Part shown: piece by piece, positions 34,497 through 50,922 of the stretch
Layout: every line of letters begins with the position of its first letter
Numbering within the stretch: the stretch's first letter is position 1
NCBI GenBank assembly: GCA_018475625.1
Contig: JAAKEZ010000013.1
Location: forward strand, 1 to 54,534
Direction: 5' to 3'
Length of the DNA stretch: 54,534 nucleotides
Source of the DNA: Candidatus Bathyarchaeota archaeon A05DMB-2
Lineage (GTDB): Archaea; Thermoproteota; Bathyarchaeia; Bathyarchaeales; Bathycorpusculaceae
The notes under the pieces: model-generated
Seen by the model: only the letters and a program-made list of their open reading frames with translations
Told to the model about the DNA's origin: nothing
Database searches by the model: none
Translations under genes and position numbers: made by a program

Positions 34497-34500
34497 GTTC

Positions 34501-34722
34501 TCAGCTTTCTTCATAGTAGAGGAAGAGACCACTTATGAGCGACAGCAGACCGAATATGATGAAAATCCATAGGTAAAATCCAACACCATTCTTGGTGACT
34601 CCTATCATGGAATGTATGCCGAAGACGTTGTAGAAGAAGAGGAACGCGAAAATCACAGCTATTCCTCCTATGGCAGTTTGTGTTACGCCGACTATTTTTG
34701 TTAGGGTTCTCCTAGCGTTCAT
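34501..34722 (-). CDS. tiny two-helix membrane protein (73 aa)
   Basis: Not recognised. Two membrane helices (about 14-33 and 47-68) with a basic N-terminus. It sits between the 70-aa protein (7 bases away) and the permease (four-base coupling), as expected for an accessory subunit. That role is inferred from position. Confidence 0.7.
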   Translation of the reverse strand: MNARRTLTKIVGVTQTAIGGIAVIFAFLFFYNVFGIHSMIGVTKNGVGFYLWIFIIFGLLSLISGLFLYYEES

Positions 34723-34729
34723 GACTGAG

Positions 34730-34942
34730 TCATCTCTTGAGCAGGAGGATTATTCCGGCTATGAAGTCTGCTGCTGCGATGGCTATGAACATTAGGGTCA
34801 ACAGTGAGGCGGTTGCTGGTTCTGTGAAAACGGTTATGTCGATTATGTTTAGTAAGGCGAGGAAAACGGTGCCTGTTAGGATTAGGCTGGTTACTATTAG
34901 GAAACCGCCTATTGCGATGGTGAGTCTGACGAGTTTCCGCAT
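34730..34942 (-). CDS. tiny two-helix membrane protein (70 aa)
   Basis: Not recognised. Two helices (about 8-33, 45-66) and terminal KR. First gene of the permease operon. It has the same two-helix design as the next protein, but little identity is visible. Confidence 0.65.
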   Translation of the reverse strand: MRKLVRLTIAIGGFLIVTSLILTGTVFLALLNIIDITVFTEPATASLLTLMFIAIAAADFIAGIILLLKR

Positions 34943-35109
34943 ACTGGGTAACGCACCAATCGTGGCTAGTTTAGGTTTTTAACTTATGGTATTAGCGGCT
35001 ATCAAGATTTAATATATTCGGCAATTCCCTGAACAGGTGCAGAAGAATTGCTATTCGAAGCGTAAACGATGGGTGAAAGGGAAGCTGGAAAGTTCTGTAA
35101 CGTTGGTTT

Positions 35110-35295
35110 TTAGGGTTTTAGGGCTGTTAAGACGAGCTTTGTTGTGTTTACATCCACTTCGGTTATCTTGCAGTTTGGGAAATCCTTGTTTTCGCCTAGA
35201 ACGTTTTTTACAGTGACATTGTTGCCTTCGGTTTTTGCGTAGACCACATCTTTGAAGAGAATTTTTCCGTTTAGAATGACGTTAAATTCGCACAT
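35110..35295 (-). CDS. CooT-family nickel-binding protein
   Basis: A 61-aa protein with the CooT signature: cysteine as residue 2 (MC-), then NVILNGKILFKDV and an acidic beta-rich tail. CooT dimers bind nickel through Cys2 and help mature nickel enzymes such as carbon-monoxide dehydrogenase. No CO dehydrogenase or hydrogenase gene lies in the window. It stands alone between the permease operon and the rhomboid gene. Ni binding is inferred from the family. Confidence 0.85.
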   Translation of the reverse strand: MCEFNVILNGKILFKDVVYAKTEGNNVTVKNVLGENKDFPNCKITEVDVNTTKLVLTALKP

Positions 35296-35389
35296 TTTTG
35301 CTGGTCACCATCCATGAAAATGTTTTCTCTGGTTATAAGGGCTTTGCTCGCTGGTTTTCAGGATTAGCTCCAGTCATGAAAATGAGTTT

Positions 35390-36025
35390 TCAGGTTATTA
35401 TACTCAAAATGTAGGGGATTAAAATTGCTGCTACCACAAGATATGTGATTAATAGCGCTATAGTTATCAGGAGATTTCTAAGCCAGTTTTTGCTCCATGC
35501 CAGCCCAAACGGAATGCCTATGGCGAATCCTATTATGTGGGCGATGTAGGCTACGTTTCCTTCTGCGCCGGAATATACGGCAACTGCATTGTACACGAAA
35601 TATAGGATGGCTATTAATCCTTGGGGTAGAATAAGGATTGAGAATTTCAGGGGTTTGGTAAGCATGACTATTGCCGCTAGCGTGAATATGGCTGCTGAAG
35701 CGCCAATTAACGGGGTTGATCCATCGTAGAATAGGAGGCTCAGAGGAAAAGCTATGATGCCACCGATGAAGAAGGCGCCTAGTGCTTTTAGGACTCCTTG
35801 GTCCTCTTCGATTGTGTTGCCGAACGCGTACAGGAAAAGCATGTTACCAGCTAGATGCAGAATGTCAGCGTGAAGAAACAACGATGTAACAACCGTCCAG
35901 ACTCTTCCTTTAAGAAGGTTATCTCTGCTGAAAGCTAGATATTCCAAGATTATGTCGGGGTTTGAAAGCCAGAAAAACAGCGTAATCAGTATGCACGCGA
36001 TGATTACGATGTTGATTTTCCTCAA
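35390..36025 (-). CDS. rhomboid-family intramembrane serine protease
   Basis: Six to seven helices with the rhomboid catalytic set: HADILHLAGNMLFLYAFG (about 50-67), GASAAIF with the nucleophile serine, and HIIGFAIG with the catalytic histidine. It cleaves transmembrane substrates inside the lipid bilayer; the substrate is unknown. 211 aa from TTG 36025, chosen because AGGTG lies 5 bases ahead. A TTG seven codons upstream is the other option. Confidence 0.93.
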   Translation of the reverse strand: MRKINIVIIACILITLFFWLSNPDIILEYLAFSRDNLLKGRVWTVVTSLFLHADILHLAGNMLFLYAFGNTIEEDQGVLKALGAFFIGGIIAFPLSLLFYDGSTPLIGASAAIFTLAAIVMLTKPLKFSILILPQGLIAILYFVYNAVAVYSGAEGNVAYIAHIIGFAIGIPFGLAWSKNWLRNLLITIALLITYLVVAAILIPYILSIIT

Positions 36026-36295
36026 TTGTACACCTGTTGATTTCAATGCTGTTTCTGTTTAATGAAAATTGTGATTGAGACTTAGACGTTAATGCGAGGT
36101 TTGCGCGGTTTTGCGTTAACGAAAAACGTTCATTTGAATCTTTAGCCTATTCCAGCTGCAATTAATCTAGGCAATTTCTTAAAACAGCTTAAGTCTCTTC
36201 TTTTCATGTTAATTTTCGTTATTTAGTCTAGATAAGTAATTATAATTCATGATTATTATACGCATTAAACTGTGATTCGTTAGTGATGGTTTCAG

Positions 36296-36760
36296 ATGCC
36301 TGAAAAAAACTCTTCCGCAGTCGACATTTTCAGCATGCTTTCAGAAAAAGAGGAAAAGGCGAAAAAGAAGCAGAGAGAAGAGATTTTGGCTGCGTCAGGC
36401 GTGAAGGAGTTTTTTACGGAAGGGAAAATCAGCATCAACAAGCGAACGTGCTGGGGACTTGAATGCAAGCTTTGCATCAACGCTTGTCCGACCAACGCTT
36501 TGTACTGGAAGAGCGGTGAAATTGGAATCGTTGATGAACTTTGCGTTTATTGTGGTGCCTGCGTGTTAAGTTGCATGGTGGACGACTGTATAAAAATCGA
36601 GCGGAAACGAGAAGACGGCAAAGTGGAACGGTTCAGCAAGGTCAAGGACATCGTGAAGCTTCAAGAGAAAATTAACGCTAGGAAACGTTGTGAACGGGTA
36701 AGCGAAATCTTCCCAACCGCGGAAGCATACTGCGAGAAGTACAAGAAGCGTCTAAAATGA
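36296..36760 (+). CDS. 4Fe-4S dicluster ferredoxin-like protein with unusual cysteine spacing
   Basis: A 154-aa protein with a charged helical N-terminus (1-45) and basic C-terminal helix around a dicluster core. The first site has C52-x4-C57-x2-C60-x3-C64-P, with two extra residues between the first two cysteines. The second is a standard C83-x2-C86-x2-C89-x3-C93 but lacks the following proline, and an extra C98 follows. Electron transfer is inferred. A TATA-like TTATTATACG occurs around 36252-36261. Its partner enzyme is not visible. Confidence 0.85.
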   Translation: MPEKNSSAVDIFSMLSEKEEKAKKKQREEILAASGVKEFFTEGKISINKRTCWGLECKLCINACPTNALYWKSGEIGIVDELCVYCGACVLSCMVDDCIKIERKREDGKVERFSKVKDIVKLQEKINARKRCERVSEIFPTAEAYCEKYKKRLK

Positions 36761-37405
36761 ACTTTTTCGGTTCTCTAATGCTCGGAGCACATACCCTCTC
36801 TTGTTTCAAGGAGTCATGTGTCGCGCTGCCAGTTCGGCGGATAGTTTCTTCCTCTCTTGTGTTTTCATCATGTTTTGGCGTGTTTCGGCGCCAATAGCGA
36901 ATAGCCCCTCTATAGGTTCTGCAACGGGCACTATTCCGCTCTAATAAGCTGGCTAATCCGCTTAGAACCTGCCGCGCGGTTATTTTGAGGCTTTAAGCCA
37001 TCAAACCAAAAAGGAATCTGTATGTCTAAAATCGTTGTGACGCGGCAAGTGTTAGTCTTCTATGTTCTGCAGAACTTCCATTATTTTTGCGAGTCGCTGA
37101 GCTGTGGCGTCGTCGAGTTTTTGATTTTCCTCCAAGTTCGCCATGTGCTTATTGTTTGCCATGAGGAATCATTTGGCGGCTGTTGTTATAACAATTCTTG
37201 TGGCAGCTGCTTCGAAGTTCGAAGTGGTCGGAAAAATTGCGGGAGCAAATTAACACTTTAATGTAGTTTTTTGCAATTATAAAAAGCCATTTTGTACATT
37301 TTTATGACATTTTTCACGAAGAAAGCACACAAAAGCTGCTTTTCTGGTGAACTGGAAGTATTTGGTGGATAAGAGTTATTAACTCAAAAATCGCATTGCA
37401 TAGTT
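36761..37405. other. 645-base intergenic region with only a doubtful small ORF
   Basis: No convincing long gene. It holds ATAGCCCCTCTATA at 36901-36914, resembling elements near 11790 and 47740, a possible 36-codon ORF (37052-37162, minus), and the promoter of the parvulin gene. Confidence 0.5.
37052..37162 (-). CDS. possible small protein (36 aa)
   Basis: The ATG-to-TAA frame encodes a Glu/Lys/Asn-rich, probably helical peptide (EENQKLDDATAQRLAK region). Composition is protein-like but no ribosome site is clear. Could be the remnant of a larger gene. Confidence 0.3.
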   Translation of the reverse strand: MANNKHMANLEENQKLDDATAQRLAKIMEVLQNIED

Positions 37406-37681
37406 ATGCCAGATAAAGTTCATTGCGCCCATATTCTCGTTAAGTCTGAGAGCGAAGCCAAAGCGGTTTTGGAGCGGTTGAAGAAGGGCGAGAAGTTTGG
37501 CGCTGTGGCTCAGCAGGTTTCGCTTTGTCCTTCTGGGAAACGTGGCGGTGATTTGGGGACGTTTCTGCGTGGGAAGATGGTTAAGGAGTTTGAGACTGCT
37601 GCTTTTGCGCTTAAGAAGGGCGAGGTTTCGGGCGTTGTGAAGACAAAATTTGGATATCATGTGATCAAGCGTTTAGAATAG
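37406..37681 (+). CDS. parvulin-type peptidyl-prolyl isomerase
   Basis: Minimal 91-aa parvulin (PpiC/rotamase) that speeds proline cis-trans isomerisation in folding proteins. The whole domain is present without signal or anchor: HCAHILVKSESEAKAVLERL, FGAVAQQVSLCPSGKRGGDLG, FETAAFALKKGEVSG and KTKFGYHVIK. Cytoplasmic. Very similar in size to archaeal Par/Pin-like proteins. Confidence 0.95.
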   Translation: MPDKVHCAHILVKSESEAKAVLERLKKGEKFGAVAQQVSLCPSGKRGGDLGTFLRGKMVKEFETAAFALKKGEVSGVVKTKFGYHVIKRLE

Positions 37682-37758
37682 CTTTTGGCTTCTCTTGTTG
37701 AGTGCGCTGTTGAAATTGTGAATAGAATTGGGTCTAATTTTGGAAAATGGATTAATAA

Positions 37759-37790
37759 TCACGTGATTTGTTGCTCGAGTGGTCACGTGA
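37759..37790. promoter_or_regulatory. pair of TCACGTGA palindromes, 24 bp apart
   Basis: TCACGTGA occurs at 37759-37766 and again at 37783-37790. The first sits in a longer 12-bp perfect palindrome AATCACGTGATT. The two copies lie about 80 bases before the next gene start. Paired identical palindromes suggest cooperative dimer binding. Which gene they control is inferred. Confidence 0.55.
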
Positions 37791-37868
37791 AAATATGAAA
37801 CGAAAAGATAGGACAATTTGCGATGTTCAATTGTTGTTTTTGAAAAGCCAAGGTCATGGTGAAACTTT

Positions 37869-38066
37869 TTGAATATGCCTTGTGAGACTTGTCCTGAATT
37901 CAACCGAGAAACTGGTTATTGCCGTAAGGTTGACGAGTACCTGCTTAATGGTTACGCTAAACATTACTGGAGTCAAAAATGTGGTGAACATAACCAACAA
38001 AATTTTGCGATCTCAAAACTTTCAGGGACTTCTGGAAACTACTGCGAAGGCGAAGGATTAAAGTAA
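37869..38066 (+). CDS. small cysteine-containing hypothetical protein (65 aa)
   Basis: Not recognised. Cysteines: CETC near the N-terminus, then C-RKVDEY and a later C-GEHN, compatible with metal binding. TTG 37869 has GGTGA 6 bases ahead, making it a better start than the ATG two codons later. It lies between the palindrome pair and the copper exporter, in the same direction. Confidence 0.6.
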   Translation: MNMPCETCPEFNRETGYCRKVDEYLLNGYAKHYWSQKCGEHNQQNFAISKLSGTSGNYCEGEGLK

Positions 38067-38141
38067 GCTGTTTTGTCTGTTTTTATTTTTCTGTGCAAGA
38101 TTGTGGTCGTGTTTGCGTGTTTCCACGGTTAACATTAAATA

Positions 38142-38169
38142 AGATATATCTTTTACAGATACATTTATA
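38142..38169 (+). promoter_or_regulatory. promoter of the copper exporter with AGATATATCT palindrome
   Basis: TTTATA (38164-38169) is a likely TATA box, about 55 bases before ATG 38222. A 10-bp perfect palindrome AGATATATCT (38142-38151) lies just upstream, where a metal regulator might bind. The regulator is not identified. Confidence 0.45.
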
Positions 38170-38221
38170 AGCACTGCCACACACGAATACACACATAAAA
38201 TTCAGGAGCTTAAGGAAAATT

Positions 38222-40327
38222 ATGCCAAAAGCAAGAGACCCCGTATGCGGCATGGACGTCGACACAGAAACCGCCATCAAACGCAAAATAGGTGACCGAA
38301 CCTACTACTTCTGCAGTCAACAATGCGCTGATGTTTACGAGGCACCTGAACGCGAACTCAAAGCCATGAAACGACGAGTAGCCATAACATTGATCGCTGT
38401 AGTGGCTGTAGGTGGACTGCGGCTGCTAACTCTTTTCGGGATTGTCGCAGCGATAATGTATTTTGAGCTCGTCGGCGGCTTATCAGTCTATGGTCTAGCA
38501 ATCTTCATAGTCTCCACGCCGGTAGTGTGGGTCGCAGGCTTCAGCATAATCAAAGGCGCCTACTTCTCCCTCAGAAACCGCAAAATAAACATGGACGTCC
38601 TAGTCGCCACAGGCGTACTTGCAGGATGGATTTACGGCGCAGTTACCTCATTCATACCAGCGATGGCGACAGACGGAATAAGCTACCTAGAAATCTCAGT
38701 CGGCATCTTAGCCTTTGTCCTATTGGGCAAATACATCGAAGAAACCATACGCCGCAGATCAGCCGCATCCATAAGAAAACTCCTCGAACTCAAACCCACC
38801 ATCGCAACAGTCCTCCGAGACGGAAAAGAAGTTGAAGTCTCAGTTGATGAACTGCAAGTAGGCGACATCGTCATTGTGAAGCCAGGCGAAAAAATCCCCA
38901 CAGACGGCATCGTAACCGCAGGCTACTCATCAGTTGACGAGAAACTCATTACAGGCGAAAGCATACCAGTGGAGAAAAAAGTTGGAAACGAAGTAATCGG
39001 CACCACCATAAACAAAACCGGCATCCTACAGTTCAAAGTCACACGAGTCGGCGAAGACACAGCCCTCGCACAAATTGTGCGACTCGTCGAAGAAGCGCAG
39101 GCTTCAAGTGCACCTGTCCAAAGATTCGCAGACCGCGTCGTCGCAAAGTTCGTCCCCATCGTCTTCACCGCCGCAGCAGTGTCTTTCACCTTCTGGTACC
39201 TAACCGCTGGTTTCTCAACAGCGTTCTTGGCCTTGCTCGCAGTGCTGCTGATAGCGTGTCCATGCGCACTGGGAATAGCCACGCCAACCGCCATACTCGC
39301 AGGCGTCGGTAAAGGCGCCGAGTACGGCGTACTCCTCCGAAGCGGAGAATACGTCGAAAAAGCCAGAAAACTCAGCACCGTGGTCTTCGACAAAACCGGA
39401 ACCCTCACCAAAGGCGAACCTTCTGTAACTGACGTGAAAGCTTACAACGGCTTCACGGAAAAAGAGGTGTTGACATTCGCGGGTTCGACTGAAAAAGCTT
39501 CAGAGCACCCACTCGCAGAAGCAATCGTAAACCGCGCACAAGAAATCAAAGCCACACTCGCCGAAGCGGAAGCGTTCGAAGCCCTGCCCGGACGCGGCGT
39601 GAAATGCACCGTGAAAGGCAGAAAAGTGCTGCTTGGAAACCGCAAGCTCATGCAAGAAGAAAACATTCAAGCCGCACAGGTGGAAGCGGACATGGAAAAG
39701 CTGGAAAGCGAAGGAAAAACTGCCATGATTTTGGCAGTTGACGGCGAGCCTGCAGGCGTAATCGCTGCCATGGACACTCCGAAAGAAACCGCCGCTGAAG
39801 CAATAAAAGCGCTGAAAAGCATGAAACTGGAAGTCGCTATGCTGACAGGTGACAACGAGAAAACCGCCAAAGCAATCGCAACGCAACTGGGCATAGACAC
39901 CGTCATAGCGAACGTGTTGCCGTGGCAGAAAGTGGACGCTATAAAGAAACTGCAAAGCGAAGGCAAGGTCGTAGCCATGGTCGGCGACGGCATCAACGAC
40001 GCCCCGGCACTGGCGCAAGCAGACATCGGCATTGCCATCGGAAGCGGAACCGACATCGCCAAAGAAACAGGCGGCATCGTGCTCATCAAGGACGACCTGC
40101 GGGACGTGGCGCTTGGCGTGGAACTCAGCAAGAAGACCATGACCAAAATCAACACAAACCTGTTCTGGGCGTTCGCCTACAACACCGTCATGATTCCAGT
40201 CGCAGCCGCAGGACTGCTAAATCCGATTTACGCGGCAGGCGCCATGGCAATAAGCAGTCTCACAGTTGTAAGCAACTCAGCTCTGCTGAAGCTGGCAAAG
40301 TTCAAGTTCGAAAAGTTTAACGGCTAA
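38222..40327 (+). CDS. copA: copper-translocating P1B-type ATPase with N-terminal YHS domain
   Basis: Pumps monovalent copper or silver out of the cytoplasm. The N-terminus is a YHS metal domain ([20 protein letters not shown]; about 6-45) in place of the usual HMA domain. Eight membrane helices carry [14 protein letters not shown]. The soluble part contains DKTGTLTKG (phosphorylation Asp), SEHPLAEA and [11 protein letters not shown]. The last helices have [14 protein letters not shown] and [15 protein letters not shown], the CopA-type set. 701 aa, complete. SD AAGGA lies 7 bases from ATG 38222. Confidence 0.96.
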
Positions 40328-43888: not shown

Positions 43889-44068
43889 AATTTATCTTTT
43901 TTATGATTTAGCAAGCCCGATAGAAGTTTTCGGCAACCAGAACAGTTAATCCAGTAGCCTCTAGTGATAGACTTTGAACCTTTACCTATTTTGAAGTGAC
44001 ATTTCATTTAAAATATGAGGAGCACTCCGTTGACGAATGTTTATGCCCAGCGCTAACTGCCAGCATAG

Positions 44069-44107
44069 CTTATAACTGACCTTTTGCAAGATTATTCTAT
44101 GTTAGGA
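44069..44107 (+). promoter_or_regulatory. promoter and ribosome site of rubrerythrin
   Basis: CTTATAAC at about 44069-44076 gives a predicted start near 44100. TTAGGAG follows and lies 9 bases before ATG 44118. Confidence 0.45.
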
Positions 44108-44117
44108 GAAGTTTGTT

Positions 44118-44621
44118 ATGACCAAAACTGATGAGAACCTGAAAGCAGCGTTCGCAGGCGAATCGCAAGCAAACAGACTCTACCTTGCCTTCGCGCGGAA
44201 AGCTGAGGAAGAAGGCTTCACCCAAGTCGCTAAGCTCTTCAAAGCCGCTGCGGAAGCCGAAACAATACACGCCCTCAACCACCTGAGAATAACTGGACAA
44301 ATAAAATCAACCGCCGACAACATAGGCACAGCTATCTCCGGAGAAACATTCGAATTCAAAAAAATGTACCCTGAATACCTAGAGGAAGCCAAACAAGAGG
44401 GCAACAAGCAAGCCGCGTGGAGCTTTGACGTGGCAAGCAAAGTGGAACAGGTACACGCTAACCTGTACCAAAAAGTCCTCAACGCCCTGAAAACCCAGAA
44501 ACAGCTGGAAAAGGTGGATTACTACGTGTGTAGTGTGTGTGGGAACACAGTCGAAGGCTCACCGCCAGACAAATGTCCAATCTGCGGCGCTCCCAAAGAA
44601 AAATTCTTCAAACCCACTTAA
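44118..44621 (+). CDS. rbr: rubrerythrin
   Basis: A 167-aa peroxide-scavenging protein with a four-helix diiron domain (AFAGESQANRLYLAFARKAEEEG, EAETIHALNHL, VEQVHANLY) and a C-terminal rubredoxin site (C-x2-C VCSVCG and C-x2-C CPICG). All ligands are seen. Typical of anaerobic archaea. Complements the FprA/OsmC pair just upstream. Confidence 0.96.
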   Translation: MTKTDENLKAAFAGESQANRLYLAFARKAEEEGFTQVAKLFKAAAEAETIHALNHLRITGQIKSTADNIGTAISGETFEFKKMYPEYLEEAKQEGNKQAAWSFDVASKVEQVHANLYQKVLNALKTQKQLEKVDYYVCSVCGNTVEGSPPDKCPICGAPKEKFFKPT

Positions 44622-44698
44622 ACCCAGATTCCCTCCATTTTTATTTTCGCCTATACACTTATATGTGCAAACGCGAAAGCTTACAATGGTGAATTTTC

Positions 44699-44917
44699 TT
44701 GGGTTGCTGGAAATGGTTCAACGGAGTTCTAAAAGAAGTCAACCTCCAGGTCACAGACGCTAACAAAGAACAAATTGATGATGTCATCCACAAGTATATA
44801 GGCGAACAATCCAACTACGGAAGATGCAGCGCAGACTGGAAAAAAGCCCGCAAAGAAATCAACGAAAGCCCAGAAATGAAGCAGGAACTCATCGCCCAAC
44901 TCAAAACACTCGCCTAA
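44699..44917 (+). CDS. hypothetical small protein (72 aa)
   Basis: Not recognised. Helical, charged protein starting WKWFNGVLKEVN, with a single Cys/Trp motif CSADWKKA. Start TTG 44699 is supported by GGTGA 6 bases ahead and a TATA-like CTTATATG (about 44658-44665). An overlapping ATG frame (44686) is judged a shadow. A T-rich tract follows near 44950. Confidence 0.65.
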   Translation: MGCWKWFNGVLKEVNLQVTDANKEQIDDVIHKYIGEQSNYGRCSADWKKARKEINESPEMKQELIAQLKTLA

Positions 44918-45041
44918 ACCGAAAATCCCAAAGCCGCTCCTTTCGCCTTTTTTCTTTTCCCAGACGCAACTTCACCCTATCAGTCCTTTTGCCTTTGAAA
45001 ACTTTATATGCCAATCCGCACAAGAATCTATCTGAGCAGCT

Positions 45042-47132
45042 ATGTTTTTAACCAAAATCAAAAAAAGAGACGGCAGAATCGCCGATTTCGACCCAAACCG
45101 AATCAAAAACGCCGTACACAAAGCCTTCCTTGCAGTGGAACTCGGCGACGGCGAAAAAGCCGAAACCATAACCCAAGAAGTCATCAAGATTTTAGAGAAA
45201 AAATTCAAAGATCAAACTCCAACCGTAGAAAACGCTCAGGACACAGTAATCTCAGTTCTGAAGAAGAACGGTTACGAAAAAGTCGCGCAGGAATATCAAG
45301 ACTACCGGAAAAAGAAGGAAGAACTCCGTAGCCTCAGAAAAATCCTCGGAATAGAACCCAAGCTAACAGTCAACGCCATGGAAGTCCTAAAAGCACGCTA
45401 CCTGCTACGCGATGAGCAGGAGAACATCATAGAAAACCCAACTCAACTATTCCAACGCGTAGCCAAAGCCATAGCTAAAATAGACACCACTTTCGGCGAT
45501 GACGCTGCAAAAACCGAAAAAATCTTTTACGAAATGATGGCTCGACTCGATTTTCTCCCCAATACACCAACCCTCTTCAACGCCGGAACCGACATCGGAC
45601 AATTATCCGCATGCTTTGTTCTACCTGTTGGAGACTCACTCAACGACATCTTCAACACCGTCAAAAACATGGCACTCATCGAGCAAACCGGCGGTGGCGT
45701 GGGATTCGATTTCTCAAGATTAAGACCGAAAGGCGACATCGTACGTTCAACCAAAGGCGTAGCATCAGGGCCAGTAAGCTTCATGCGCATTTTCGACACT
45801 GCCACAGAAGTGATTAAGGCTGGCGGCAAACGCAGAGGTGCCATGATGGGCATCCTGCGCGTGGATCACCCTGACATTTTGGAGTTTATCACTGCCAAGC
45901 AGAACCCGATGTTTCTGTCGAACTTTAACGTTTCAGTCGCAGCCACAGACGAGTTCATGGCTGCCGTCGCAGCGGATGGCGAATACTGGCTGGTTAACCC
46001 ACGCAACAAGGAAAAGGTGGAAAAGCTCAAAGCCAGAGACGTTTGGAACTTAATGGCGCGGTCTGCTTGGGCAAGCGGTGACCCAGGCGTGGTTTTCATC
46101 GACGAGATTAACAGGCATAACCCTACACCGCAGGTTGGGAGAATCGAATCTACGAACCCATGTGGCGAGCAACCATTGCTTCCTTATGAAAGTTGCAATT
46201 TAGGTTCGATTAATCTCTCTCGAATGGTTGAAGACGGCAAAATTGACTGGGCGAAGCTGCGGGAGACAGTGCGGAACGCGGTGCATTTCCTCGATAATGT
46301 GGTGGACGTGAACGTTTACCCGCTTAAGGAGATTGCCGACATAACGAGGGCGAACAGGAAAATAGGTTTGGGGGTCATGGGCTTTGCGGACATGCTTATC
46401 ATGCTTGGTGTGCCGTATGATTCTGAAGAAGCGCTGAAGATTGGCGAGGAAGTTATGCAGTTCATCGAGGAGGAAGCGCATCAGAAATCCAGGGAAATCG
46501 GCGAACTACGGGGTTCTTTCCCTAACTTTGAAGGCAGCATCTGGAAAGACAAGTACGGCGCTTTCCGGAACGCGACGGTGACGACTGTTGCGCCGACGGG
46601 AACCATCAGCATCATCGCTGGTTGCTCGTCTGGGATTGAACCGCTGTTCGCGGTGTCGTTTATGCGGAACGTGTTAGGCGGTGCACGGTTGTTTGAGACG
46701 AATGCGTTGTTTGAGGAGACAGCCAAAGCGCGTGGATTCTACAGTGCAAAGCTTCTCGAGGAAATAGCCAGGACAGGTTCGGTGCAGAAAATCGAAGGCG
46801 TTCCGGATGACGTGAAGCGGCTGTTTGTCACAGCGCTGGATATCGCGCCTGTTTGGCATGTCAGGATGCAGGCGGCTTTTCAGAAGAGCACGGATAACGC
46901 TGTTTCGAAGACGGTTAATTTGCCGAATGAGGCGAAGGTGGAGGATGTGCGGGAGATTTACGATTTGGCTTGGCAACTTAAATGCAAGGGCGTGACAGTT
47001 TTCAGGTACGGGAGCAAGCCTGAGCAAGTTTTGTACATTGGACAGGTTAAGGCTAAGGAGGGCTCGTTTGTTTCGGCGCAGTCTGAATATGCGGGTGGTT
47101 GCCCAACGCAGAATTGTCCGTTTCCAGCTTGA
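45042..47132 (+). CDS. nrdJ: adenosylcobalamin-dependent (class II) ribonucleotide reductase
   Basis: Reduces ribonucleotides to deoxyribonucleotides with a B12-derived radical. Residues 1-95 are an ATP-cone. The large barrel carries NTPTLFNAGTDIGQLSACF, GGGVGFDFSRLRPKGD, the catalytic NPCGEQPLLPYESCNLGS (Cys and Glu, about 362-379) and APTGTISIIAG. The C-terminal CPTQNC (near 690) is the redox-active cysteine pair. 696 aa, complete. TATA (ACTTTATATG, 45001-45010) gives a nearly leaderless start. The cobalamin adenosyltransferase follows in 20 bases. Confidence 0.96.
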   Translation: MFLTKIKKRDGRIADFDPNRIKNAVHKAFLAVELGDGEKAETITQEVIKILEKKFKDQTPTVENAQDTVISVLKKNGYEKVAQEYQDYRKKKEELRSLRKILGIEPKLTVNAMEVLKARYLLRDEQENIIENPTQLFQRVAKAIAKIDTTFGDDAAKTEKIFYEMMARLDFLPNTPTLFNAGTDIGQLSACFVLPVGDSLNDIFNTVKNMALIEQTGGGVGFDFSRLRPKGDIVRSTKGVASGPVSFMRIFDTATEVIKAGGKRRGAMMGILRVDHPDILEFITAKQNPMFLSNFNVSVAATDEFMAAVAADGEYWLVNPRNKEKVEKLKARDVWNLMARSAWASGDPGVVFIDEINRHNPTPQVGRIESTNPCGEQPLLPYESCNLGSINLSRMVEDGKIDWAKLRETVRNAVHFLDNVVDVNVYPLKEIADITRANRKIGLGVMGFADMLIMLGVPYDSEEALKIGEEVMQFIEEEAHQKSREIGELRGSFPNFEGSIWKDKYGAFRNATVTTVAPTGTISIIAGCSSGIEPLFAVSFMRNVLGGARLFETNALFEETAKARGFYSAKLLEEIARTGSVQKIEGVPDDVKRLFVTALDIAPVWHVRMQAAFQKSTDNAVSKTVNLPNEAKVEDVREIYDLAWQLKCKGVTVFRYGSKPEQVLYIGQVKAKEGSFVSAQSEYAGGCPTQNCPFPA

Positions 47133-47151
47133 ACGGAGGTGAAGGTGGCAG

Positions 47152-47706
47152 ATGGGTTATGTGTATTTGTATTATGGAACTGGCGGCGGAAAGACAGCAA
47201 ACGCGCTTGGGTTGGCTTTGCGGTCGGTGGGTCATGGCAAAAGCGTGGTGATTATCCAGTTCCTCAAGTGGAAAAAAGACATCGGTGAATACTTAGTCAA
47301 GGATAAGCTTGCGCCTTACTATGAAATTTACCAGTTTGGGCGGGAAGCGTGGCTTGGCGAAGAGGAGAAAACAGAGGAGTTTGGTGGAGAGAAGTTTACT
47401 GTTGAATGTGTCAAAAGCCAAGATAAGGAACTTGCTAAGAAAGCGCTTGATTTTGCAGGGAAAATTCTTCGTGAGAAGAAGCCGCATTTGCTCGTGCTGG
47501 ACGAGGTTGGGTTGGCGGCGCAGTGGAAACTAGTCGAAGTCAAGGACGTGCTGAAGCTGCTTGAAAACATGCCAGTCGAAACGACTGTGGTCATGACCGG
47601 GCGGTTGGCGCCGAAAGAACTTGTTGAGAGAGCGGACTTCGTGAACGAGGTTAAGCTGGTTAAGATGCCTGAAGACTTCAAGCTGACCGAAGGCATCCAA
47701 TACTAA
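47152..47706 (+). CDS. cobA: cob(I)yrinic acid a,c-diamide adenosyltransferase (CobA/BtuR type)
   Basis: Attaches the 5'-deoxyadenosyl group to the corrinoid cobalt, producing the active cofactor. The P-loop YYGTGGGKTANALG (about 6-19), VVIIQFLKW, LLVLDEVG and VVMTGRLAP are the family motifs. Its short 184-aa form is normal. It begins 20 bases after class II ribonucleotide reductase with GGAGGTGA ahead, so the operon couples the enzyme to its cofactor. A hairpin follows the stop. Confidence 0.95.
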   Translation: MGYVYLYYGTGGGKTANALGLALRSVGHGKSVVIIQFLKWKKDIGEYLVKDKLAPYYEIYQFGREAWLGEEEKTEEFGGEKFTVECVKSQDKELAKKALDFAGKILREKKPHLLVLDEVGLAAQWKLVEVKDVLKLLENMPVETTVVMTGRLAPKELVERADFVNEVKLVKMPEDFKLTEGIQY

Positions 47707-47714
47707 AAATCAAA

Positions 47715-47971: not shown

Positions 47972-50242
47972 TTAACCTGTTAGCATAGGCTCTTTCGATA
48001 GTAACTTATAAAGGGCATCTAACTTTATCTCCAAACCTAATTTCTCGCATATTCCATCATCAATGGCTTTTCTGGTGAAAGGATTTGCAAATTCTTCGGG
48101 AAGTGCCTTTAATTTTGATTCGCTCAGTCTCTTGCCATCTAATCGTTCTTCGTATAATTCCAAAAGGTTAGTCTTGGTTTTGCGACTTGGTTTACGAATG
48201 TCAAGAACAGGCATTTCTTGTAAGGATTCTTTCTTAAAGTCTACCCAAGGACCCTGCGTAACTTCTGCGGTCGATAGCAATAACAAGAGACCGAACGTTG
48301 AGTTCATCCACAGAGCAAGAATCTTGGCGATATCGTCATCTACATTTGTAGGCCACCAAACATTCGAGAGGACTTTTTCATTAAGGTATGCTGCTAGAAC
48401 TGGGTAGGTATTCAATCTAGCCCTCTCAGTTATCAATAGTTTTCCACTTTTAGTCCATAGTTTGCGGGCTTGTCTGGCATTCTTTGGTTCCAAATAGGCA
48501 TTGGGTTCTTGAACAATGGTTTTGATTGTGTTTGAATCGTAACCCCAAAGGGTTTTGTAGATGGTACCTGCCTCTGTTGTGCTAACTTTGAATGTTGAAT
48601 GAACTTGCCTTCTATCTGGACCTATTTCGGCACCTATTTTAGACAAGGTAGTTAGCCTGACACCGCCAACTATACCTTGATCGGGCGAGTAAATTATTCC
48701 CTTTCTCAGAAAAAGTAGCGTTCGGTTAAGCTCCATTTGCGAGAAAAAGTTATACACGCCAAAGTTGCTGTCTTCTAGCTTTGCAGAATAAACTTCCCCA
48801 ATCTTTTTTCCATGCAATTTAAGATGATAAGGCGATGCATTCGAATTTTCCACATCATAAAGTTTGGCGCTGCCATAAAGCCCTTTCAATTGTGTACCCA
48901 AATGAATAGACTCAAGTTCGTTGGAAGGCTTCTTCCACAAATTAACAAAAAACGTATAATCAGACACTTCACCACTCCTTTTCTTCCGCGCCACTATCAG
49001 AACTTCACTCAAATCCGTATTTTCACTGAAATTCCATTGATTATTCGTTTCATAACTGGTTATTATGTATTCAATATGATATTTCTCCAGAAGCATCTCC
49101 CGCACTTTCTTCCAAGAAACCCCCGACAAGACAGCCCTTGGAAGAACAAGCCCCAACCTACCATTTTCTTCCAAATATTTATCAGCTATAAAAACAAAAA
49201 CTGCTCCAAGCCCAGCTTGACCAATACCTGAAAGATTCTGATCCTTAAGTAATCGACCAAGAACCTTTTGTAGCACAGTTCGCTCTTTCTTAGGCAATGA
49301 ACCAAACAAAAGATTACCGCCCACGCTTCTCGTGAAAGGCGGATTCATTATACAAACATGAAAACTTGGAAGTTCAATAGATTTAGTCTCCCTTTTCGTA
49401 ACACTTACACTCTCTTGACCCCTATGTCTCTCTCCACTAGGAAGCATCATGTCTTGACCGAGAACTGAGGAAGAGAGGAAATTCACACTTCCCAAGTATT
49501 TTCCTTCACCTAATCTTAAAGCAATAAGATTAGAATCGCTCACTGGAACAGGATTATGTAAAGAAAGCACCGTGGCCGCAAGATGAATCGCATGATGCAA
49601 AACGTCAAAACCCCAAACACCTTCTTCGATAAGATACTTGGCCAACTCGTCAATTTTAAGATCATCACTTTCAAGCCTATGCCGTGCATCAATCTCCTTA
49701 TAAATCGCTGAAAGAAGGGTGCCCGATCCGCACGCGAAATCGACCACTCGAAAAGGTTCACCATTGTAAGTTGGAGGAACACTTCCAACATTCAAATCAG
49801 AAGGTAGTATTATCAAAAGTCTACCCAACAATCGAGCAGCAGGAAGCGACGTATAGTACGTTGCATTATACTTAACCAAATTTCCCAAAAGCAAATTGTG
49901 ATAAATTCTTCCAAAGAGATCATGTCTAAGCAGAACCCTTGACGAAGCAATGTCATATGATAAGTTAGCAAGTGATCTAAGTTCGCGGTCAACGACCGCG
50001 CTCGCGGGTAAATTCATGAGAATACTAAGACTAATGTCTAGAACGGGCTCATAGTCAATATTTTGAATTATGTATTGCCAAGAATTTTCCAGTTCCTTTT
50101 TTAGATTCGCAGACGACATAAACGTCGAAAGCGTAGGCACTTCCTTGTGAGAAGCAGCAATAATCTCATGAAAAACCATGGCGTCAACAAGTAACAGCCC
50201 AGCCGTCGATACAAGCTTATGGACATCTTCTTTCTTCCCCAT
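47972..50242 (-). CDS. N6-adenine DNA methyltransferase, type II/IIG-like
   Basis: A 756-aa class I DNA methylase. The SAM-binding motif FACGSGT is at about residues 168-174 and the catalytic motif IV NPPF at 300-303, an order typical of gamma-class N6-adenine enzymes. A helical N-terminus (1-160) and a long C-terminal segment (430-750) that probably recognises target DNA complete it. The module is visibly richer in A/T than its neighbours. One base separates it from a PD-(D/E)xK nuclease gene upstream. It is likely a restriction-modification pair, though no cognate sequence can be read here. Confidence 0.9.
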   Translation of the reverse strand: MGKKEDVHKLVSTAGLLLVDAMVFHEIIAASHKEVPTLSTFMSSANLKKELENSWQYIIQNIDYEPVLDISLSILMNLPASAVVDRELRSLANLSYDIASSRVLLRHDLFGRIYHNLLLGNLVKYNATYYTSLPAARLLGRLLIILPSDLNVGSVPPTYNGEPFRVVDFACGSGTLLSAIYKEIDARHRLESDDLKIDELAKYLIEEGVWGFDVLHHAIHLAATVLSLHNPVPVSDSNLIALRLGEGKYLGSVNFLSSSVLGQDMMLPSGERHRGQESVSVTKRETKSIELPSFHVCIMNPPFTRSVGGNLLFGSLPKKERTVLQKVLGRLLKDQNLSGIGQAGLGAVFVFIADKYLEENGRLGLVLPRAVLSGVSWKKVREMLLEKYHIEYIITSYETNNQWNFSENTDLSEVLIVARKKRSGEVSDYTFFVNLWKKPSNELESIHLGTQLKGLYGSAKLYDVENSNASPYHLKLHGKKIGEVYSAKLEDSNFGVYNFFSQMELNRTLLFLRKGIIYSPDQGIVGGVRLTTLSKIGAEIGPDRRQVHSTFKVSTTEAGTIYKTLWGYDSNTIKTIVQEPNAYLEPKNARQARKLWTKSGKLLITERARLNTYPVLAAYLNEKVLSNVWWPTNVDDDIAKILALWMNSTFGLLLLLSTAEVTQGPWVDFKKESLQEMPVLDIRKPSRKTKTNLLELYEERLDGKRLSESKLKALPEEFANPFTRKAIDDGICEKLGLEIKLDALYKLLSKEPMLTG

Positions 50243-50243
50243 T

Positions 50244-50837
50244 CTATTCCTCCTCCACTTCTTCTAACTCCAAAACCTCTTTCAACCGCTCAACATTAAC
50301 AGCCGTAGAAACCTTCGATGCAAATTCCCATAGAACTTCATTCATCCTATTTATCACAGGTCCAATTATGTCCTCCCTGACAACTCGAGTGTACGCACTC
50401 ATCAGATATGTCAAAAACTCATCAAAACCCACATCCGCATATTCTTCTGGTTTGGGCGCAACATGTAGCCATTTGTCAAGTCCCGCTCGATCAATGTAAG
50501 AAAGAAAACCGATATTGAACCGTCCCTTTAAAAGAGCATCCTTAACATCCAACTGATTTGGCACTAGTTTTTTCAATTTAATGTCAGCATACTCAACCAT
50601 GACACACAGGTCGCATACATTATTGTCCAATCTTTCCTTACACTGATCAACCAGCGCCGCCCACATGCCAAGCTTCTTTCCTTCAATGACTATCCTGACA
50701 CCGTTTAATTCTATTAAAACATCAGGTTCAGGTCGCCCCTTTCTCTTTCGCAGAATCACCTCACCTAAAGCCTTAAGTCCCCTCTCTGTCAAAAGCTCAG
50801 CCAAAATGACATTTAGATTCTCCTCCCTGAAGCTCAA
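50244..50837 (-). CDS. PD-(D/E)xK nuclease, probable restriction endonuclease
   Basis: A 197-aa protein with PEPDVLIELNG and VIEGKKLG: P38-D39, then E52-x-K54 after 12 residues, the metal-binding arrangement of PD-(D/E)xK nucleases. An N-terminal basic helix (ILRKRKGR) may contact DNA. The rest is helical with an acidic tail (LEEVEEE). No named restriction family is recognised. It is first in an operon with the adenine methylase (1-base gap). Cutting activity is inferred from the motif. Confidence 0.78.
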   Translation of the reverse strand: MSFREENLNVILAELLTERGLKALGEVILRKRKGRPEPDVLIELNGVRIVIEGKKLGMWAALVDQCKERLDNNVCDLCVMVEYADIKLKKLVPNQLDVKDALLKGRFNIGFLSYIDRAGLDKWLHVAPKPEEYADVGFDEFLTYLMSAYTRVVREDIIGPVINRMNEVLWEFASKVSTAVNVERLKEVLELEEVEEE

Positions 50838-50922
50838 TATAGACTCCCATTTTTATAGTAAAGGTGGCATTCCTTTATAGCAATTATCTTAAATTTCAAT
50901 CAAAAAGAACACAAAGTTTTTT

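Follow-up and report, generated by a model that had tools for sequence, protein, structure and literature searches.

The DNA analysed here (the window) is a 54,534-nucleotide stretch of the archaeon Candidatus Bathyarchaeota archaeon A05DMB-2, contig JAAKEZ010000013.1. On its reverse strand lie a gene for a 197-aa PD-(D/E)XK nuclease with a TTG start (50244-50837) and, downstream of it, a gene for a 756-aa gamma-class N6-adenine methyltransferase with a C-terminal specificity region (47972-50242), assigned by Pfam, an AlphaFold model and fold comparison. Both open reading frames were confirmed, and the single base that separates them (50243, after the TAG stop codon of the nuclease) agrees with the initial annotation, which described a methylase/nuclease module of two genes whose methylase has a long C-terminal specificity region. 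The TTG start matches the position of an ATG in the nearest relative, with which the methylase and the nuclease share 75% and 73% identity, respectively. Measured against this relative, pN and pS are 0.153 and 0.798 for the methylase and 0.145 and 0.862 for the nuclease; since pN is far below pS, both genes appear to be under purifying selection and maintained as proteins. Inside the 3' end of the nuclease gene is a ribosome-binding-site-like sequence, GGAGGAGGAATAGAATG, followed by the methylase ATG (50240-50256, reverse strand). The string GGAGGAGG that precedes this ATG suggests coupled translation of the two genes, and strings of this kind are not rare in the window.

The module has a GC content of 0.411 (41.1%) against 0.49 and 0.50 on its two sides, which bears out the earlier observation that its A/T-rich composition is unlike that of either flank, and no other non-overlapping 2866-bp stretch in the window is as A/T-rich. 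A second A/T-rich stretch at 34500-38250 (roughly 34.5-38.5 kb), with 41-44% GC and few open reading frames, nearly rivals it, so composition alone is modest evidence. By eye, the reading frames of this second stretch are rhomboid-like, ferredoxin-like and parvulin-like, and Rfam gave no match there. The neighbours of the module are housekeeping genes; neither another defence gene nor a helicase was found among the genes adjoining it.

The nuclease

The catalytic motif of the nuclease, PD39-x12-E52-G-K54, lies at 50676-50723 (reverse strand) and was defined from the sequence and from alignments A1 and A4. Catalytic residues are present in all 91 relatives, and E26, D39, E52 and R69 do not vary in any of the 91 sequences. 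K54 is replaced by E or D in 23 of the 91, always together with a change of E5 to Q, and the window copy keeps K (50676-50678). This double replacement is possibly an active-site charge swap. The link is complete among the gap-free rows of alignment A4 and involves four changes on the tree, but as just two independent pairs are well supported I rejected the coupling as significant on the tree. The loss of the catalytic K in roughly one in four members of the wider family raises the alternative that the module is inactive or methylation-only, its nuclease no longer cutting or acting as a structural or regulatory subunit. Decayed copies among the relatives (L082, L088) and PglX of BREX, which methylates and is not a nuclease (PMC12707154), point the same way. 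For the window module, however, I regard this as quite improbable, because D39, E52 and K54 are all present, the first two belong to the invariant set, and the nuclease is under strong purifying selection.

The initial annotation recognised no restriction family in the nuclease, and this held: Pfam and PADLOC gave no match and NCBIfam a single one far below its cut-off, all at chance level. A profile built from 72 relatives meets AF1548 at the catalytic motif (E 0.002), and hhalign aligns the nuclease profile with the N-terminal domain of other single-chain restriction-modification proteins from archaea (97.9%, E 5.6e-13).

The model of the nuclease (pLDDT 85) has the usual PD-(D/E)XK core, with a helix at residues 5-19, strands at 27-30, 41-44 and 47-55, a helix at 59-71 and a strand at 77-85; D39 sits immediately ahead of the second strand and E52 and K54 lie within the third. 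The predicted protein consists of a minimal cleavage domain and a helical tail, and a recognition domain is absent from the prediction. This bears on the possibility that the two adjoining genes, arranged as ordinary Type II genes are, form an orthodox Type II pair: a nuclease that alone recognises and cuts its site, and a methylase that independently protects it. Because the nuclease model has no recognition domain, it is very unlikely that each enzyme finds the site for itself.

In fold comparison, the N-terminal domains of HsdR, BpuSI, DrdV and BsaXI are among the best rows (Z 5.8-7.9), with the nuclease model falling on BpuSI residues 18-173 (Z 7.8) and DrdV residues 21-143 (Z 7.2); at Z below 8 chance similarity is possible, and these matches are weak by themselves. 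Foldseek returned nothing for the nuclease model at E 0.001 or better.

The methylase

Against Pfam, the methylase scores 35 bits with N6_Mtase (cut-off 20.4) and 29.3 bits with Eco57I (cut-off 25.3), and no NCBIfam or PADLOC family matches near its full length. It is the sole N6_Mtase match in the host genome assembly, which is 96% complete. Motif I, DFACGSGTLL, precedes motif IV, NPPF, which is the gamma-class order. The predicted SAM-binding part of motif I, DFACGSGT (residues 168-175, 49718-49741, reverse strand), was placed with alignments A2 and A5, and in alignment A5 all of N300, P301, P302 and F303 of the gamma-class catalytic motif IV (49334-49345, reverse strand) are invariant.

The AlphaFold model (pLDDT 88, pTM 0.89) shows four parts on the reverse strand: a helical N-terminal segment (residues 1-104, 49931-50242, delimited by model secondary structure and VIA ranges), the catalytic domain, a mixed region where a recognition domain would lie, and a bundle of helices at the C-terminus (about residues 636-756, 47975-48337, from model secondary structure). 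The mixed region is a putative target-recognition region (about residues 430-635, 48338-48955), assigned from where it lies in the model when compared with MmeI and CamA; unlike that of the MmeI family, it is not hypervariable among relatives. By VIA-align, the methylase model matches CamA with Z 27.1 over 487 residues, BrxX with Z 23.2, DrdV 199-1029 with Z 22.1 (532 residues), BpuSI 182-866 with Z 21.6 and MmeI 174-889 with Z 19.4; it matches the last three along its full length. The ranges on DrdV, BpuSI and MmeI begin at the helical spacer, which in MmeI spans residues 156-300 after a cleavage domain at 1-155 (PMC4833311). Residues 1-104 of the modelled methylase would then correspond to the Type IIG helical spacer, and I propose them as the docking site of the nuclease. 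As the ranges covered by the nuclease and then the methylase model are complementary (18-173 and 182-866 of BpuSI; 21-143 and 199-1029 of DrdV), the break between the two genes falls at the boundary between R domain and spacer of the single-chain enzymes.

Weak matches of the methylase to mad2, DrmMI and PglX models could make it one component of a larger MADS-, DISARM- or BREX-like defence system. I consider this extremely improbable: the matches are far below the cut-off where one is given (MAD2, 27.6 of 720 bits), no BREX model comes near its cut-off, and partner genes are lacking among the adjoining, housekeeping, genes. Nor did a search for a recurrent third partner near the relatives find one, returning antisense reading frames and unrelated neighbours.

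Fused and separate relatives

On two bacterial plasmids, tblastn located single-chain proteins of 971 aa and 947 aa that combine the nuclease with the methylase. Such fused relatives occur on Sulfuricystis pSTJ1 and Aminobacter pUSP4 and in many Pseudomonadota; their parts stand in the same order and show 33-35% identity to the methylase subunit and 23-28% to the nuclease subunit, but they are made as one chain of 947-971 aa where the window system has two. A scan with the methylase alignment, using one genome per species, gave 80 loci, of which a contig edge cuts or breaks four. In all 76 loci with upstream sequence the nuclease lies directly upstream of the methylase on the same strand, an order without exception, and it is fused to the methylase in 41 and a separate gene in 35. 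Fusion of the nuclease to the methylase N-terminus in these 41 loci also argues against an orthodox Type II pair. The separate pairs commonly overlap by four bases (ATGA) or one base or are spaced by a few bases. One of them (L123) sits in a finished chromosome (CP030884.1), so separation is not merely a frameshift of draft assemblies.

On the tree, 11 changes between fused and separate are needed, at least six of them forced by well-supported branches, against 28 for shuffled labels. The archaeal clade that includes the window has nine rows with a support of 100, all separate, from Bathyarchaeota, Brockarchaeota, Njordarchaeota, Nitrososphaerota and one viral contig; more distant archaeal single-chain enzymes carry a homologous N-terminal domain. 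Close-relative searches of viral contigs with either protein gave nothing, whereas the methylase alignment search found four such contigs; no phage record matched the nuclease.

Copies in various states were also seen. Frame-shifted nuclease and methylase genes in Brockarchaeota and fragments in Bathyarchaeota (L082, L088) are decayed modules, and one locus (L070, in G130) holds nuclease fragments alone. Two matching two-gene copies (L094 and L095) lie in opposite orientation about 11 kb apart on one contig, JACAEN010000040.1.

Two genomes of one genus, G040 and G049, have a nuclease gene without the methylase (L044:5865-6461 and L045:1901-2452, respectively). A uracil-DNA-glycosylase-like gene, named by sequence, directly follows the nuclease where G019 has the methylase, and the methylase start context ATGAGTAAGAG is still present. 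No methylase of the module's family was found in the G049 assembly and only a weak fragment match in that of G040; the two assemblies are 80% and 84% complete, so a methylase could lie elsewhere. The nuclease frame is open in G040 and frame-shifted near the C-terminus in G049, and the two copies differ by dN 0.028 and dS 0.171 (dN/dS 0.16). These orphans fit a nuclease that is harmless alone. An open nuclease frame that outlasts its methylase should be lethal if the nuclease cut by itself, so a self-sufficient cutter, as in an orthodox Type II pair, is unlikely. A further reading is that the R subunit is truly modular, maintained for its function as a separate gene through long archaeal lineages, able to outlast its methylase and perhaps serving another methylase or another nuclease role, and this I consider rather unlikely.

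A probable two-subunit Type IIG-like system

Given the profile comparison, the fusions in 41 loci and the fold comparison, the nuclease is, on sequence and modelled structure, a Type IIG-like R domain, N-terminal in the single-chain enzymes, that here forms a subunit of its own. The suggestion of a new Type II system is therefore not supported. The initial annotation held that this idea would fail if the nuclease belonged to a common family, and that is partly the case: the domain is a known, Type IIG-like one, but separately made. The pair as a whole is probably a two-subunit (R + MS) Type IIG-like restriction-modification system. The 756-aa MS subunit would bind SAM and use its C-terminal region to read one DNA sequence, in which it would methylate an adenine, and the 197-aa R subunit, having no recognition domain, would dock on the methylase and cut unmodified DNA. 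The gene arrangement, catalytic motifs, near-total genetic linkage, recurrent fusion and matching folds can be read directly from the sequences. From these I infer that the two proteins form a complex, that cleavage depends on the methylase and is site-specific, and that the module methylates DNA and serves in defence against invaders.

The window pair has two traits of Type IIG enzymes, an N-terminal PD-(D/E)XK domain of about 200 aa and a gamma-class N6-adenine methylase with a C-terminal recognition region. It departs from the third, a single chain, which is found in 41 of the 76 relatives. As the system would work in a Type IIG-like manner yet is not a single chain, I file it as a new organisational variant. 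The single-chain Type IIG/IIC/IIL enzymes BpuSI, DrdV, MmeI and Eco57I share its order and folds (PMC4833311), that is, R domain, helical spacer, gamma-class methylase, recognition region and C-terminal helices, but the R of the window is a separate gene and polypeptide and sequence similarity to these enzymes is low. A review that catalogues Type IIG organisations shows R and gamma-M in one covalent chain in every case (PMC3874165). The nearest precedent for a separate R is HVO_A0006 of Haloferax volcanii, an R fragment that stands alone and was proposed to form a split complex with HVO_A0237 (PMC4389544). As in the window pair, a PD-(D/E)XK fragment equivalent to the Type IIG N-terminus is made apart from the methylase/recognition protein; unlike the window genes, these two are not adjacent, are flanked by transposase genes and are regarded as fragments. 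Deletion of HVO_A0006/HVO_A0237 left adenine methylation unaffected (PMC5867850). The Type IIB enzymes BcgI and BsaXI are also Type IIG-related and made of two polypeptides, but their separate part is S (RM + S) whereas that of the window is R (R + MS). Type I (HsdR + HsdM + HsdS) and Type III (Res + Mod) systems likewise have a separate nuclease subunit that depends on modification/recognition subunits, but the window nuclease lacks a helicase/translocase and has just 197 aa. In the literature I found no characterised R + MS Type IIG enzyme; REBASE, which lay outside the search, may already list this system by sequence.

Reviews treat the Type IIG nuclease domain as permanently joined to the methylase. 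The window pair belongs to a broad family, present in archaea and bacteria, that departs from this, its two parts being separate about as often as fused, with several switches. It offers natural fused and separate pairs for asking how Type IIG enzymes coordinate cleavage with methylation, and it lends support to an evolutionary connection of single-chain enzymes with subunit systems of the Type I kind. The family also shows that the nuclease half escapes annotation libraries, so its loci are probably recorded as orphan methylases.

Acquisition of the module

The nuclease occurs in five of 101 near genomes (the window genome counted) and in 13 of 398 across the phylum. In a genome of the same genus (G001), blocks matching the window stop at 47709 and resume at 50920, and the module is absent at that junction; beta-helix and PQQ-like protein genes lie at the G001 junctions. 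The repeats that flank the module, inverted or direct, are short and imperfect, with no sign of a mobile element. Given the composition, gain in the window genome is likelier than loss in G001. Horizontal acquisition, as first suggested for this module, is thus probable from its composition, its absence at the junction in a genome of the same genus and its patchy distribution. Between these two species of one genus (the G001 locus being L194), the block at 44059-47709, which carries rubrerythrin, ribonucleotide reductase and corrinoid adenosyltransferase genes, is inverted, with PQQ-repeat and beta-helix genes at its ends in G001.
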